DNA of 64,000 nt from NCBI RefSeq assembly GCF_002914585.1, contig NZ_PDDM01000004.1, forward strand, positions 124,001 to 188,000. The letters run 5' to 3'. This DNA is from Pseudanabaena sp. BC1403. Its GTDB lineage: Bacteria > Cyanobacteriota > Cyanobacteriia > Pseudanabaenales > Pseudanabaenaceae. This document shows positions 19,860-46,321 of the stretch, piece by piece; within the stretch, counting starts at the first letter, position 1; every line of letters starts with the position of its first letter. The notes under the pieces were generated by a model. That model made no database searches, was not told the origin of the DNA, and was given only the letters and a program-made list of their open reading frames with translations. The position numbers and the translations under genes were made by a program.

Positions 19860-20369
19860 CTATTCGCATTCTTGGAACTCGAATCGGTATTTGACGATTC
19901 CACGACAACCATCCAAAGCGCTATTTTTCAATTCTAAGACCATAAATACATCATCTGGAACTAGGTACTCACACTTTAGTCCCTTTTCTTTTGCGGAAAT
20001 AAATCCGAAACGTGAATAGTATTCTGGATATCCCAACACCACCACAGCTTTGCATCCTAAATCAGAGCATTTCTCTAAACTATGTTTAATCAATAGAGAT
20101 CCAATTCCCCGCCGTTGATATTGAGGCAATACTGCTAATGGTGCTAATCCAAGAATCATTAATTCTTCAGAGCGTTTTTCGTCGATCGTAACGGGACTAA
20201 AGAAAATATGACCAACAATTTGTTCTGATTCTATAGCAACAAAAGAAAGTGTATTGTCAATTTCCCTTAACTGATCGACTAAGTTAGCCTCATTCTCTCG
20301 TCCAAAGGCTGCGATATTAACCGTACGAATTGCATCTATATCTTCTGGACGTTCGTTTTGAATTTCCAT
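19860..20369 (-). CDS. GNAT-family N-acetyltransferase
   Basis: A 169-residue protein of the GNAT fold that should move an acetyl group from acetyl-CoA to an amine. The acetyl-CoA loop is QYQRRGIGSLLI and the preceding strand is LGLAPLAVLP. VVVLGYPEYYSRFGF, typical of the YhbS-like subgroup, follows. The substrate is unknown. It is divergent from grpE across a spacer filled with nested palindromes. Confidence 0.88.
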   Translation of the reverse strand: MEIQNERPEDIDAIRTVNIAAFGRENEANLVDQLREIDNTLSFVAIESEQIVGHIFFSPVTIDEKRSEELMILGLAPLAVLPQYQRRGIGSLLIKHSLEKCSDLGCKAVVVLGYPEYYSRFGFISAKEKGLKCEYLVPDDVFMVLELKNSALDGCRGIVKYRFEFQECE

Positions 20370-20767
20370 CAGTTTAGGTAAATAAAATAGTCCCTTAGAT
20401 AATATGTCACGGCGATCGCCGTGACATCAGCAGTTCTCATTATGAAAATCGGTTGTTTGAAAGCCCGCCGTTGGCGGGCTTTCAAACAACCGATTTTGGT
20501 GTTTCCAGCGCCTTCGGCGCTGGAAACACCAAAATCGGTTTCATAATGAGAATTGCTGCCGTGACATATATTTAGACCTATCAAAAAGTAAAAGTGATAA
20601 AAGGTAATTACCATTACTTTTTGGTTTTATGTCACCAACTGCTATACGTTGTCTCTGATAAAGAGTAAAATCGGTATAATTGACTAAAATCGTCAAAATT
20701 AACACTTAAATTTTAACTCTTAGCAATTTACTGCTAGTCTAAAAAGCGCTAAAAGAGTATCACTGTA
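20370..20767. other. Divergent spacer of GNAT gene and grpE
   Basis: A 398-bp region. The GNAT-proximal half is the nested palindrome described separately. The grpE-proximal half (20580-20767) is AT-rich, probably holds the grpE promoter, and shows no clear CIRCE element. Confidence 0.5.
20404..20567. repeat. Nested palindrome element, copy 1
   Basis: A 24-bp palindrome centred on GGCGATCGCC (20404-20427) is followed by an outer stem (20428-20447 with 20539-20558). The outer stem encloses two hairpins: A, 20445-20469 with 20473-20497, and B, 20488-20512 with 20516-20540. Segment 20488-20497 can pair in A or B, giving alternative folds. A third copy of GCCGTGACAT follows at 20558-20567. Related copies are at 23531-23657 and 41736-41857. 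Confidence 0.85.
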
Positions 20768-21526
20768 ATGATCGAAGAAGAAAACAACCTAATTTCTGAC
20801 GACCTCATCGACGAAGATGATGAGGTACTTGAGTCTCGGCTGCAACAACTTGCAACCGAAGAATTAAATCAAATCGCAAACCCAGAAACATCTATCCCAG
20901 AAGGCTCTCAAGGATCTGCGACTACAACTAGCGAATCAAAACCTGAAGTAAGTAAAGCAAACGCCGCCGCCGCCGCAACGCTAGACAAAATTAATGGTTT
21001 GATCGCTGAGTCAACATCACTTAGAGAGCAGCTAGACGATCGCAAACAGCAATACTTACGGCTGTATGCCGACTTTGAGAATTTTCGCAAACGTACAGAG
21101 CGCGATAAAGAAGAGCAAGAAGGCACAATTACAGGCAAGATTCTCAAAAAAATCTTGCCTGTAGTTGACGATTTTGAACGGGCGCAGTTACAAATTTCAC
21201 CAAAAACAGATGGTGAAGCGTCAATTCACAAAAGTTATCAATCGGTATACAAACAGTTACTCAAATGCCTCAAAGAGACAGGTGTAGTAAGAATGGAATG
21301 CGTCGGTCAAGACTTTGACCCTAATTTTCATGAAGCAATTATGCAAGAACCCTCGACTGAATATGGCGAAGGCATAATCACTGAGGAATTACGCCCAGGA
21401 TATTTAGTCAGCGACGATCGAGTTTTACGTCATTCTCTGGTTAAAGTATCATCTGGGAAAATCGATGGCGATGATAGTGCATCTTCTGAAAATGCTACCG
21501 AAAATAGCTCTGGAGAATCCAACTAA
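20768..21526 (+). CDS. grpE: GrpE nucleotide-exchange factor
   Basis: Co-chaperone of 252 residues that releases ADP from DnaK. A long acidic, disordered N-terminus (1-75) precedes a coiled coil (about 75-130: LREQLDDRKQQYLRLYADFE). The GrpE head includes FENFRKRTERDKEE, ILPVVDDFERA, QDFDPNFHEAI and RPGYLVSDDRVLRHSLVKVS. dnaK lies 115 bp downstream on the same strand, the usual stress-chaperone arrangement. Cytosolic. Confidence 0.96.
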   Translation: MIEEENNLISDDLIDEDDEVLESRLQQLATEELNQIANPETSIPEGSQGSATTTSESKPEVSKANAAAAATLDKINGLIAESTSLREQLDDRKQQYLRLYADFENFRKRTERDKEEQEGTITGKILKKILPVVDDFERAQLQISPKTDGEASIHKSYQSVYKQLLKCLKETGVVRMECVGQDFDPNFHEAIMQEPSTEYGEGIITEELRPGYLVSDDRVLRHSLVKVSSGKIDGDDSASSENATENSSGESN

Positions 21527-21641
21527 AATAAATATTTCAAGATTGCGATCGCGATTGCATCTTGAAATGCATTATTAGGGTACATTATTCAGAAATTCAT
21601 TAAGCTAAACTTTAAAAAAGCTTTTAACGGAACTGGCGAAT

Positions 21642-23501
21642 ATGTCGAAAGTAATTGGGATCGACCTTGGTACGACAAACAGTTGTGTTTCTGTTTTAGA
21701 GGGTGGTAAGCCTGTTGTCATCTCTAGTGCAGAGGGAGGGCGAACCACACCTAGTATTGTCGCTTTTGTCAAAGACAGCAGCGAGCGGATTGTTGGGCAG
21801 GTTGCTAAGCGCCAATCTGTTACCAACTCAGTAAATACGGTTTACAGTATTAAGCGGTTTATTGGTCGTAGCTGGGATGAGACTGAGCAGGAGCGTAGTC
21901 GCGTTCCTTATACTGCGGTCAAGGGTAAAGATAATACCGTAGATGTCCAGATTGGCGATCGCGCTTATACTCCCCAAGAAATTTCGGCGATGATCTTGCA
22001 AAAACTGAAGCAAGATGCCGAGAACTATCTAGGTGAAGAAGTGACTCAAGCGGTTATTACCGTACCCGCTTATTTCACTGATACTCAGCGCCAAGCAACA
22101 AAAGACGCTGGGGCTATTTCGGGCATGGAGGTTCTGCGGATTGTCAATGAACCTACAGCAGCGGCTCTCGCCTATGGTTTGGACAAGCAAGATCAAGATC
22201 AGATTGTTCTAGTGTTTGACCTTGGCGGTGGAACGTTTGATGTATCTGTTTTACAGCTTGGCGATGGTATTTTTGAAGTTAAGGCAACCTCAGGAAATAA
22301 TCACCTTGGTGGTGATGACTTTGACGCGATGATTGTGGATTGGCTAGTTGCTGACTTTAAACAAAAAGAAGGAATTGACTTAGCCGCTGACAAAACCGCT
22401 TTGCAGCGACTCAAAGAAGCTGCTGAAAAAGCCAAAATTGAGCTTTCTAGTGCCCCTTCAACCTTAATTAGCTTGCCATTTATTGCATCTGATGCCACTG
22501 GCCCAAAGACCATTGAGCTAGACTTTACCCGTTCCAAATTTGATGAGATTACAGCATCTTTAGTCAAATCAACTCTTGAGCCAACAGCTCAAGCTCTTAA
22601 AGATGCAGGGTTATTACCGAAAGAAATTAATCGAATTATTTTAGTTGGTGGCTCCACCCGTATTCCTTCTGTACAAGATGCGATCTCCAGATTTTTTGAT
22701 GGTAAAAAACCAGACCAATCGGTTAATCCAGATGAAGCTGTAGCGATCGGCGCTGCTGTCCAAGCGGGGATCTTAGGTGGCGAGGTTAAGGATCTCTTAT
22801 TGCTAGACGTAATTCCTCTTTCAATCGGACTAGAAACTCAAGGAGGTGTATTTACTAAAAACCTAGAACGCAACACCACAATTCCTACTAGCAAGTCCCA
22901 AATTTTCTCCACCGCCGTTGACAATCAATCGGCTGTAGAAATCCATGTCCTCCAAGGTGAACGGGCGATGGTAAAGGACAATAAGAGCCTCGGCAAATTT
23001 GAGCTAGAGGGTATTCGTCCCGCACCTCGCGGTATTCCGCAGATCGAGGTTTCCTTTGATATTGATGCTAACGGTATTCTCAAGGTGTCAGCGCGAGATA
23101 TTGATACTGGGGTTGAGCAAAGTATTAGCATCACTAATACGGGTGGATTGAGCCCTAGTGAAATTGAGAGAATGCGGATGGAAGCTGAAGTCTATTCTGA
23201 AGAAGATGAGGCTCGCCGTGAATTAGCGAATATGCGGAACCAAGCATCTAACTTGATTCGCACAGTTGAAGAAATCCTCAGAGACAATGGCCCTTCGGTC
23301 ATCACTACAAGTTTGCGCGAACCTACGCTAAAAAACATGGAAGCTCTCAAGAATTTATATGAAGCTGAAGAAGCCACCTATGAAGACTTACAAACTGCAA
23401 TTAAACCGTTACAGCAATCCCTATTTGAAGTAACTCAAACAGTTGAGAAATACTCCCAAGTTGAGCGGGTCAAGCAGAAACCGAGCGACAGCTTAGAATA
23501 A
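21642..23501 (+). CDS. dnaK: Hsp70 chaperone DnaK
   Basis: A 619-residue Hsp70. The ATPase domain (1-385) shows [35 protein letters not shown] and [13 protein letters not shown]. The linker [13 protein letters not shown] leads to the substrate domain, with ILQG-like VLQGERAM and [17 protein letters not shown], and then the helical lid. It ends in a short Lys/Ser/Glu tail, without the usual acidic EEVD-like terminus. Most cyanobacteria hold several dnaK genes. Linkage to grpE suggests the main housekeeping or stress form. It folds and protects cytosolic proteins with DnaJ and GrpE. Confidence 0.97.
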
Positions 23502-23511
23502 AACTGAATGG

Positions 23512-23660
23512 CGATGCTTTTGCATCGTTCTAGCAATTCTAATTTTAAAAATTGGTTTTTTGAAAATCAGCCACAGACTGATTTTCAAAAAACCAATTTT
23601 GTATTTTCCACCGCAAGCAGTGGAAAATACGAAATTGGTTTCATAATGAGAATTGCTGAC
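23512..23660. repeat. Nested palindrome element, copy 2
   Basis: A small hairpin CGATGC-TTTT-GCATCG (23512-23527) precedes the element. Hairpin A has arms 23548-23570 and 23578-23600. Hairpin B has arms 23590-23611 and 23620-23641 with one G-T pair. An imperfect outer stem joins AGCAATTCTAATTTT (23532 on) to CATAATGAGAATTGCT (ending 23656). As in copy 1, the AAAACCAATTTT segment can pair either way. Confidence 0.8.
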
Positions 23661-23787
23661 ACCGCTCTTCAGTTTTACTGCGATCGCAAAGCGCTGTATG
23701 ATGACAGAGTTATACTTGTATTTTTGGCTACAGTTGCCAGCTGTCAACATTGGCAACTAAAGCTTATTTTGTAAACCGTGAGCCGCT

Positions 23788-24756
23788 ATGTCACTGTTTG
23801 ATTGGTTTGCTGAAACCCGCTCCCGCGCAGGTGAAGCTTATCACCGCAAAACTCCTAATCTGAATCAAAACTCTCAAGAACGTGAAATTCCTGACGGTTT
23901 GTGGCACAAATGTTCTAGTTGTGGTGCTTTAACCTATGTAAAGGATCTAAAAATCAATTTGATGGTTTGCCCAGAATGTGGTCATCACAATCAGGTTAAT
24001 GCTTATGAGCGTATAGCTCAGTTGATTGATTCTGGTACATGGCAGGAAATGGATCCAGATTTAACTTCTTGTGATCCACTAGGTTTTAAAGATCGTAAGC
24101 CTTATATAGATCGCATCAAAGAATATAAGCAAAAAACTGGTTTAAGTGATGGGGTGATCACTGGAACTGGCAAGATAGATGGATGTGATGCTGCAATGGC
24201 AGTAATGGATTTTCGCTTTATGGGCGGCAGTATGGGATCGGTAGTAGGTGAAAAAATCACCCGTATGCTAGAAACTGCTACTGCAAAACGCTTTCCTGCT
24301 TTGATATTTTGTGCTTCGGGTGGAGCACGGATGCAAGAGGGGATTTTGAGCTTAATGCAGATGGCGAAGACTTCGGCAGCTCTGGAGCGTCATCGACAAG
24401 CTAATTTGCTTTATATCCCCGTTTTGACAAATCCCACTACGGGCGGCGTGACTGCGAGTTTTGCCATGCTCGGCGATATTATTTTGGCGGAGCCCAAAGC
24501 TTTGATCGGGTTTACAGGTCGGCGCGTAATTGAGCAGACTCTCAAGCAAAAAATTCCCGATGGCTTCCAGTCATCAGAATATTTGCTCGATCATGGATTT
24601 GTAGATGCGGTTGTGCCAAGAACAAAGCTGAAACAAAGTTTGGCGATGATTTTGAAAATGCATCAGCCGCAAGAGTTAATTGCTAATAATCAAAATCTTA
24701 ATGGTGCTACTCAGTCTGTAACCCATGCTATGTCTGATAGTTCGCTAAGCTTATGA
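23788..24756 (+). CDS. accD: Acetyl-CoA carboxylase carboxyltransferase subunit beta
   Basis: A 322-residue carboxyltransferase beta subunit that, with AccA, transfers CO2 from carboxybiotin to acetyl-CoA in fatty acid synthesis. The N-terminal zinc ribbon has cysteines at about 42, 45, 61 and 64 (CSSC, CPEC). The crotonase-like domain shows [35 protein letters not shown] and [12 protein letters not shown]. The length is normal for cyanobacteria. A 20-bp hairpin follows its stop codon. Confidence 0.97.
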
Positions 24757-34208: not shown

Positions 34209-34361
34209 AAAACCCAATAATTGATTGGCGGCGCTCCGCGCCGCCAATCAATTATTGGGTTTTATACCAAAACACAAAGTGGCTGCGCCACTTTGTGTTT
34301 TTAAAACCCTTACAGGGTTTGGTTTTTAATTCACAGAAGTGTTGTCACACTTTTGTGAATT
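34209..34361. repeat. Cluster of four tandem hairpins
   Basis: Hairpin 1: 26-bp arms 34209-34234 and 34238-34263, core GGCGGCGC. Hairpin 2: arms 34269-34283 and 34287-34301. Hairpin 3: a small 7-bp stem 34304-34310 with 34314-34320. Hairpin 4: arms 34328-34342 and 34347-34361 with one G-T. They fill the spacer between convergent acyltransferase and tsaD. Hairpin 2 resembles 36506-36556. Confidence 0.85.
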
Positions 34362-36505: not shown

Positions 36506-36556
36506 ATTCATACCAAAACATAAAATGGCTTAGCCATTTTGTGTTTTGGTATGAAT
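36506..36556. repeat. 24-bp hairpin, ATACCAAAACA family
   Basis: Arms 36506-36529 and 36533-36556 pair with one G-T. The outer sequence TTCATACCAAAACA and the following GAATTGGTATTAC match the ends of the cluster at 34265-34370. It lies between psaJ and convergent gshA. Confidence 0.75.
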
Positions 36557-39257: not shown

Positions 39258-39312
39258 AAAAAACAGTCATAGAGGTGCGGCGCTTTGCGCCGCACCTCTA
39301 TGACTGTTTTTT
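39258..39312 (-). terminator. 26-bp perfect hairpin after guaA
   Basis: Arms 39258-39283 and 39287-39312 pair perfectly around loop TTT with core GTGCGGCGC and outer A6/T6. It lies 10 bp after the guaA stop codon on the minus strand. Confidence 0.8.
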
Positions 39313-41735: not shown

Positions 41736-41857
41736 ATATGAAACCGATTTTGTGGTTTTTAGCACCTGCGGCGCTAAAAACCACAAAATCGGTTTCATAT
41801 GCGAGTCCACCGACGGTGGACTCGCATCAAAACCGATTTTTATAATGAAAATTGCTG
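41736..41857. repeat. Nested palindrome element, copy 3
   Basis: Hairpin A has 28-bp arms 41736-41763 and 41773-41800. Hairpin B has arms 41799-41811 and 41815-41827 with loop GAC. The right end AAAACCGATTTTTATAATGA with AAATTGCTG matches copies 1 and 2. The left outer arm is largely missing, so this copy looks truncated on that side. Confidence 0.8.
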
Positions 41858-43796: not shown

Positions 43797-43910
43797 ATAG
43801 CTATAGCCAATCAAGTCAGGACATAAAACCCAAAAGAGAGTTGGGGCGCGAAGCGCCCCAACTCTCTTTTGGGTTTTGACTTTGTCCTAATATTGCTGAC
43901 GATAGCTATA
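43796..43910. repeat. Intact TATAGCC-AATCAAG hairpin element
   Basis: The inner hairpin has perfect 25-bp arms 43825-43849 and 43853-43877 (outer AAAACCCAAAAGAGAG, core GGGGCGC). It is flanked by TATAGCCAATCAAGTCAGGA on the left and GTCCTAATATTGC...TATAGC on the right. It is the well-preserved counterpart of the decayed element at 26081-26185. Confidence 0.75.
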
Positions 43911-45892: not shown

Positions 45893-45947
45893 AAAACCCA
45901 ATTAATGAATATGCGTCGCTTTGCGACGCATATTCATTAATTGGGTT
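45893..45947. terminator. 26-bp perfect hairpin over ycf35 stop
   Basis: Arms 45893-45918 and 45922-45947 pair perfectly around loop TTT, with outer AAACCCAAT and core GCGTCGC. Its end abuts the ycf35 stop codon on the minus strand. Confidence 0.75.
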
Positions 45948-46321
45948 TAAGCCCATCGACCAATCACAATTCTCACAGTTCCGTCTTCTAATATTTCTTG
46001 CTGCTCGATCGCAAATCCCTGTTGAGTTGCACTTTCTAGAACCGTTCTAGCCGCATATTGCTGATTAAGTTCCCCTAGAAACTCCTCGACATTCATTGCT
46101 AAGCCCCACATGTCAGCAATGAGTTCATAGCGATCATCTACTTTCCTAAAGCCGATGTCATAGGCATTAGGCATGGGGATCACATATTCGGCTGTAGTAG
46201 CATCGCCAAGATATCCGCGCACTAAAGTATTTTGCTTGACGGGATAGCCCAGCGATTGTAAGGCTTGTTCTAGCAAGTCACCATTTTTGATTTCGATGGC
46301 GATCGTGGTGAAGTGGGACAT
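45947..46321 (-). CDS. ycf35: Ycf35 (DUF1257) protein
   Basis: A 124-residue protein of the Ycf35/DUF1257 family, shared by cyanobacteria and red-algal plastids. It begins MSHFTTIAIEIKNGDLLEQAL and includes DDRYELIADMWGL and QQYAARTVLESATQQGF. The role is unknown. It follows ycf46 with only 2 bp between them, so the two are translationally linked and probably act together. Confidence 0.9.
   Translation of the reverse strand: MSHFTTIAIEIKNGDLLEQALQSLGYPVKQNTLVRGYLGDATTAEYVIPMPNAYDIGFRKVDDRYELIADMWGLAMNVEEFLGELNQQYAARTVLESATQQGFAIEQQEILEDGTVRIVIGRWA

Follow-up and report, generated by a model that had tools for sequence, protein, structure and literature searches.

A 131-bp mobile element of Pseudanabaena with overlapping hairpins that can change in both arms after insertion

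The nested palindrome located after dnaK in Pseudanabaena sp. BC1403 is one of many copies of a short repeat that has moved in the past, that shares its ends and the length of its target duplication with an insertion sequence, and whose hairpin arms co-vary among copies. In insertions shared between species, the hairpins differ by complementary changes in both arms and by inversion of their loops. We consider it probable that the repeat is a 131-bp non-autonomous MITE moved in trans by an insertion-sequence transposase, and that its hairpins are sometimes rewritten by template switching after landing. The role of template switching as the cause of the paired changes is what we infer from the pattern of the changes.

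The window, i.e. the whole stretch of DNA that was analyzed, is 64,000 nucleotides long. The gene names dnaK and accD were taken from the original prediction and from our reading of the sequence. The prediction had placed a second copy of the palindrome at positions 23512-23660. The element proper of this copy spans 23531-23658, and positions 23512-23530 belong to the split terminator of dnaK, including the left 9-bp duplication. The features of the window are the following.

20419-20427, no strand: left target duplication of copy 1, CCGTGACAT, perfect; empty site in L148
20428-20558, plus strand: copy 1 of the MITE, 131 bp, typical; 87-98% identity to the other scored copies of the genome
20445-20497, no strand: hairpin A of copy 1, 25-bp arms, 3-nt loop
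20488-20540, no strand: hairpin B of copy 1, 25-bp arms, 3-nt loop, 10-bp overlap with hairpin A
20559-20567, no strand: right target duplication of copy 1, CCGTGACAT, perfect
23500-23530, plus strand: 5' portion of the dnaK terminator hairpin, which the insertion has interrupted; includes the left duplication; an unsplit hairpin occupies the same place in near relatives (e.g. L147, L148, L152)
23522-23530, no strand: left 9-bp target duplication of copy 2, GCATCGTTC, 3 of 9 bases unlike the right one; empty sites in relatives
23531-23658, plus strand: copy 2 of the MITE, 128 bp, diverged; 73-80% identity to other full copies over nearly the whole length; ends placed by script
23531-23550, plus strand: left terminal inverted repeat of copy 2, differing from the 20-bp end by 4 mismatches
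23548-23600, no strand: hairpin A of copy 2, from a self-complementary match and the fold
23590-23641, no strand: hairpin B of copy 2, from a self-complementary match; about 10 bp in common with hairpin A
23639-23658, minus strand: right terminal inverted repeat of copy 2, without mismatches; G000:C4:147639-147658 in the genome-wide end search
23659-23667, no strand: right 9-bp target duplication of copy 2, ACACCGCTC, from the comparison of the duplications; empty sites in relatives
23668-23676, plus strand: 3' end of the split terminator stem, from the fold and the relatives
41736-41857, minus strand: copy 3 of the MITE, one end missing, one hairpin extended into terminal-repeat sequence

Copies 1 and 2 are located 3.1 kb apart. 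Their common right end, CATAATGAGAATTGCTG, had been noticed in the original prediction and is part of the 20-bp terminal inverted repeat. Self-matches likewise confirmed the proposed A/B design of copy 2, with two self-complementary inner hairpins that overlap. The proposal that the inner hairpins of the two copies are different sequences calls for a correction: they are related, the copies being 74% identical in an end-to-end alignment. The region 23500-23680 folds at -71.4 kcal/mol versus a shuffle mean of -31.56 (z = -10.01), and none of 200 shuffles was as good. No Rfam family matched positions 20300-24000 of the window at gathering scores. In copy 3, the lengthened hairpin has 31-nt arms that are 97% complementary, and this growth into the terminal repeat fits the template-switch account.

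The terminal inverted repeats of the family are 20 bp long, CAGCAATTCTCATTATGAAA, and are separated by 91 bp. With up to three mismatches, the 20-bp end matched the genome 189 times versus three times for the reversed pattern used as a control, and 100 of the 189 places were listed. A comparison of copy 1 with the whole genome brought up 139 first-look candidates; scores were computed for 40 of them, and the other scored copies had identities of 87 to 98%. Plasmid and phage records gave no match to copy 1. The remaining counts for this genome cover part of all copies because they are based on 80 stretches around the listed places and on the window. Elements were considered as paired if both ends had at most six mismatches and at least one end had at most four; this defined 65 paired elements of 44 to 141 bp in the window and the 80 stretches. 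Copies were present on many contigs and in both orientations. In the 131-bp element, hairpin A occupies positions 18-70 and hairpin B positions 61-113. Since the two hairpins share positions 61-70, a 10-bp segment is present three times, as a, a', and a, and the central a' is able to pair with either neighboring a. Short forms of 44-45 bp lack both hairpins, and their length, 131 minus 86, would be that expected of a deletion between the outer a segments. For none of the six short copies did a relative match both flanks, and the sole matches were to a neighboring MITE copy. A 27-bp palindrome built solely of two end sequences, CAGCAATTCTCATAATGAGAATTGCTG, was seen at L038:1093-1119.

Perfect 9-bp target duplications were found in 34 of the 65 paired elements, and duplications with at most one mismatch in 45. 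The mean identity of the flanks was 0.83 at 9 bp versus 0.24-0.38 at other lengths from 3 to 13. Copy 1 is missing in L148, in which the target is present once, as expected of an empty site. The site of copy 2 lacks the element in 22 of 25 relatives, which are the 22 whose spacer was read (L163, L170, and L171 being the other three). It is occupied by the unsplit hairpin in the near relatives and by other hairpins in more distant relatives; in the window, copy 2 splits the terminator hairpin of dnaK. Insertion points were located in open reading frames in 10 of 49 cases versus 145 of 196 control points, indicating that open frames are avoided and that insertions are mostly intergenic. Copies 1 and 2 both landed in an older palindrome. 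More generally, 12 of 40 intergenic insertion points were inside an inverted repeat versus 16.7% of control positions (1625 of 9713; one-sided p = 0.027), a difference only suggestive of a preference for landing in palindromes. The repeat combines the features of a MITE, namely numerous copies with terminal inverted repeats, a duplication of fixed length, empty sites, and ends in common with an autonomous element, and it is nearly certain that it is a mobile element of this type.

Two side observations concern the same sites. In L147, a different hairpin insertion, with arms of about 21 bp, comes after the site of copy 1 in place of the MITE. The native hairpin after dnaK, compared by eye in L148-L169, has arms that differ among relatives yet remain paired, so this hairpin may also change in both arms.

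The partner insertion sequence was found by searching eight relatives for the coordinates of the ends, using an 18-base end as the query. Two matches on G002:C5 face each other, span 1418 bp, and flank an open reading frame for 444 amino acids. This element (G002:C5:584-2001) has a left end identical to the 20-bp MITE end, a right end with one mismatch, and a perfect 9-bp duplication. Both ends were present 1417-1428 bp apart at 14 of 30 fetched loci, and 10 of these 14 had a perfect 9-bp duplication. Upon inspection by eye, the MITE interior did not resemble the 57 and 61 bases at the termini of the full element, only the ends being common. The 1418-bp element is a likely source of the MITE transposase, and the transposase of this insertion sequence group would move the 131-bp MITE in trans. 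Homologues of the transposase, fragments included, were detected in 9 of 26 Pseudanabaena genomes. The genome of the window itself contained no homologue passing an E-value of 1e-10, and movement there would therefore be past or due to another enzyme.

The protein was compared with IS4/ISAs1-like DDE transposases by profile searches. The 444 residues matched PF13808 at 18.6 bits versus a cut-off of 32.3 and PF01609 at 17.6 bits versus a cut-off of 23, both below threshold, and had no match in NCBIfam and, by sequence, no relative among solved structures at E-values up to 1. Residues D136, D225/D226, and E345/E347 are kept in three homologues and would form the DDE triad of a putative DDE enzyme. 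Homologues encoded by a Gloeothece plasmid (WP_013335080.1, 46% identity, annotated as an ISNCY family transposase) and a Calothrix plasmid (52%) are bordered by the ends CAGCAATTCTCATTTT. The Calothrix copy is flanked by a perfect 9-bp duplication, but no such duplication is seen around the Gloeothece copy, whose flanks differ at 6 of 9 bases. A Pseudanabaena homologue, L219 (47%), has only the outer CAGCARTTC of the ends in common. The ends are therefore those of this insertion sequence group, their inner part being variable. An insertion sequence of L101 with a PF01609 transposase was rejected as the partner on the basis of its other ends (TTAGTGGTGCAGAAAA). A search of 26 genomes with PF13808 revealed no insertion sequence with MITE ends among 30 fetched loci; the partner found later was a row below the cut-off in this search. 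A separate insertion sequence is present at L101:958-2258, with ends CTTAGTGGTGCAGAAAA and, as judged by eye, a 9-bp duplication CTCTTGCCC; it had one match in the genome of the window.

The original prediction had proposed to align the copies and to look for co-variation of the inner arms with conservation of the outer ends. Starting from 52 copies of 118-145 bp, we retained 39 gapless 131-bp copies, of which 38 were distinct, and scored a structure consisting of the ends, hairpin A, and the inner hairpin B. Cells changed on both sides and still paired numbered 66 versus 8.6 in shuffles and 6-13 if the partners were slid by 1-3 columns. All 66 were located in the inner hairpins. The 20-bp terminal repeats alone provided no paired double change versus 1.2 in shuffles, and the anticipated combination of co-varying inner arms and non-co-varying ends was therefore observed. 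Hairpin B alone, including the shared segment, accounted for 40 paired double changes versus 4.5. The distance between arms correlates with this behavior since arms 3 nt apart co-vary and terminal repeats 91 nt apart do not. Cells changed on one side only numbered 49 in the hairpins, 19 of which led to G-U pairs, and 32 of the 66 double changes were of transversion types that cannot be passed via G-U.

Two columns supplied 22 of the 66 double changes, revealing a subfamily history. In 31 of the 39 copies, the three a segments had identical 8-base cores, which occurred in five different sequences, and the subfamilies AATTGG (10 of 39) and AATCGG (18 of 39) had the same motif in all three segments. 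The common subfamily history of copies residing in one genome inflates the co-variation counts. Because the comparison of copies is open to this effect, we examined insertions shared between species.

Flank matching of 150 elements from fetched loci, some of which had been fetched twice, gave 20 pairs, eight of which were kept. The 12 dropped pairs consisted of ten places fetched twice, one repeat of a kept pair (L261/L119), and one pair with short, weak flanks (L143/L021). Four of the eight pairs (L279/L265, L280/L067, L281/L274, and L287/L083) also share unusual end mutations and thus derive from the same insertion event. In the eight pairs, the flanks differed at 184 of 3952 aligned bases (4.7%) and the ends at 6 of 272 bases (2.2%, 17 + 17 end bases per element); the left flank of L255/L247 aligned poorly over 250 bp, with 37 mismatches. 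The 400 stem pair cells, counting the middle segment in both hairpins and including 6 cells with a gap on one side, contained 10 complementary double changes, 42 one-sided changes, and 1 non-pairing double change. With about 8% of the stem positions changed, we estimate that independent change would have generated about one complementary double change versus the 10 observed.

The double changes came from five of the eight pairs. All three a segments differ in concert in L261/L257 (TCGTT to TCGGTT), and L280/L067 shows the loss or gain of a T in one arm and of an A in the opposite arm. Hairpin B of L279/L265, L258/L025, and L287/L083 displayed simple decay: 8, 7, and 6 cells, respectively, had changed on one side, and there was no paired double change. 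Among the 16 loops compared, 6 were the same, 7 were otherwise changed, and 3 were exactly inverted: TAC/GTA in L261/L257, AAA/TTT in L280/L067, and TTT/AAA in L281/L274. The inversions in hairpin B of the latter two pairs occurred with nearly unchanged arms. Fifteen variant arm strings were obtained from six of the eight pairs. Eight of these, from five pairs, were present in only one of the 150 sampled elements, and the other seven in 3 to 80; the strings are 10-21 bases long, longer ones being more readily unique, and the 150 elements are a partial sampling. These concerted hairpin changes support the original view of a family in which the ends are conserved and the inner stems either change rapidly or are swapped. 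Swapping of whole stems seems less likely than rewriting in place, although this is less firm.

Loop inversion was also visible in a census of 139 distinct elements (a few of them overlapping calls of one place), in which a 3-nt loop was scored in 121 A hairpins and 118 B hairpins. In hairpin A, common triplets occurred along with their reverse complements (GTT 36 and AAC 10, TAC 11 and GTA 10, TTT 8 and AAA 5), as they did in hairpin B (GAA 34 and TTC 23, TTT 18 and AAA 18). Other triplets had no partner or an uneven one (TAT 4 and ATA 0 in hairpin A, GCA 6 and TGC 1 in hairpin B). Since the order of A and B fixes the orientation of the element, the reverse-complement triplets can be read as real inversions.

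According to the explanation that we favor, the MITE would be moved by the putative DDE-type transposase of the insertion sequence group with the same ends, with duplication of 9 bp, mostly between genes. After landing, replication would sometimes switch template between the close arms of one hairpin, so that the second arm receives a copy of any change in the first and the loop is flipped to its reverse complement. The terminal repeats, 91 bp apart, would stay uncorrected and provide an internal control. Because the middle segment belongs to both hairpins, a change could walk along the element: one arm would rewrite this segment, which would then serve as the template for the other hairpin. 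We tentatively propose that such walking changes keep the three segments matched and that each copy records natural template-switch events. The excess of one-sided changes (42) over double ones (10) in the eight shared insertions, the B hairpins that simply decay, and the loop triplets lacking a reverse-complement partner count against the template-switch account.

Ectopic gene conversion, by which the hairpins of another copy would overwrite those of the element via recombination, both arms arriving together, is the main alternative, unlikely but with some features in its favor. Many similar copies are available, the three-way change of L261/L257 involves states known in other copies, and the seven variant strings also found in other elements have a possible source there. 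However, the eight strings found once in the partial sampling, such as CCGAGTTAGG in L255, have no such source among the 150 elements, four shared insertions retain unusual end mutations a few bases away from the hairpins, and loop inversion with nearly unchanged arms (hairpin B of L280/L067 and L281/L274) is not predicted by conversion. Selection for RNA structure, with hairpins acting in transcripts as terminators or decay barriers and stems kept paired for this reason, appears less probable still. The mostly intergenic location of the copies (10 of 49 insertion points in open frames versus 145 of 196 controls) and the splitting of the dnaK terminator by copy 2 are in its favor, but about half of the double changes are impassable via G-U, inversion of a loop is worthless for pairing, and the copies reside on many contigs in both orientations, with no Rfam match around copies 1 and 2.

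The clear subfamilies, with the same motif in all three segments, would be accounted for if all differences predated insertion and came from diverging master copies, nothing happening in place. This is very improbable, since hairpin differences exist within the eight shared insertions, which were identified as such by their flanks and in four cases by unusual end mutations as well. A local duplication of two nearby spacers, the alternative named in the original prediction in case no other copy existed, could be suspected from the short distance between copies 1 and 2. Many further copies were found elsewhere, on many contigs, which excludes this origin; the target duplications also differ, and its probability is practically nil.

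Nezha is a bacterial MITE of cyanobacteria. As for bacterial MITEs such as Nezha, the Pseudanabaena element is short and geneless, has terminal inverted repeats and target duplications, is present in many copies, and carries the ends of a full insertion sequence. It differs from them by its two overlapping hairpins with one common segment, by arms that change together after insertion, and by a host genome in which no full element was detected. With the cyanobacterial insertion sequences labeled ISNCY it shares the terminal repeat CAGCAATTCTCATT(A/T)T and the 9-bp duplications of the Pseudanabaena and Calothrix copies, but only the ends are common to the MITE. REPINs are not known to have a target duplication, and identity of the element with a REPIN was rejected in view of its 9-bp duplication and of a same-ended partner with weak DDE matches. 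According to PMC3116915, REPINs also are dispersed intergenic hairpin elements in which the ends are conserved, the middle varies, and compensatory changes occur, and they are associated with tyrosine transposases (RAYTs), unlike the present element with its 9-bp duplication and a partner showing weak DDE profile matches. In that paper, compensatory changes across the hairpin spacer are tied to selection for length and hairpin capacity (PMC3116915). Rewriting in place might occur in REPINs too.

Template switching between inverted repeats is a known process, which we propose here for an element with an unusual pair of segment-sharing hairpins. PMC8604942 presents homogenization of the arms and inversion of the spacer as the signature of a polymerase that switches template at short inverted repeats, and PMC8794818 describes loop inversion along with compensatory change. 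The Pseudanabaena hairpins resemble quasipalindromes undergoing template-switch mutation (see also PMC7202029), for which PMC8794818 and PMC8604942 report arm homogenization and spacer inversion at short inverted repeats. The cases described concern RNA genes, yeast genes, and E. coli, whereas the present case concerns natural copies of one mobile element. The element was not found, among the matches listed, in open PubMed Central papers on MITEs, dispersed repeats, cyanobacteria or Pseudanabaena, and template switching, and a 14-base string from its end had no match in open PubMed Central papers. A major repeat of Pseudanabaena is hereby named together with a likely source of its transposase. 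Since a single genome offers so many natural copies of these hairpins, the rates of arm homogenization and loop inversion could be measured in it, with the distant, uncorrected terminal repeats as a built-in control, and compensatory change in a bacterial hairpin need not signal selection for RNA structure.

Other palindromes were seen in the window. Those located at 2901-2953, 34209-34263, 39258-39312, 43825-43877, and 45894-45948 are perfect, with 25-26-bp arms, A-rich outer ends (mostly of the AAAACCC type), a center of the GGCGC type or similar, and very different middles; they may represent another hairpin family with arms changing together. Two inverted copies of a hairpin of the CAAAACACAAAGTGGC type are located at 34261-34301 and 36515-36555, and a sequence similar to this type of hairpin adjoins several MITE insertions.
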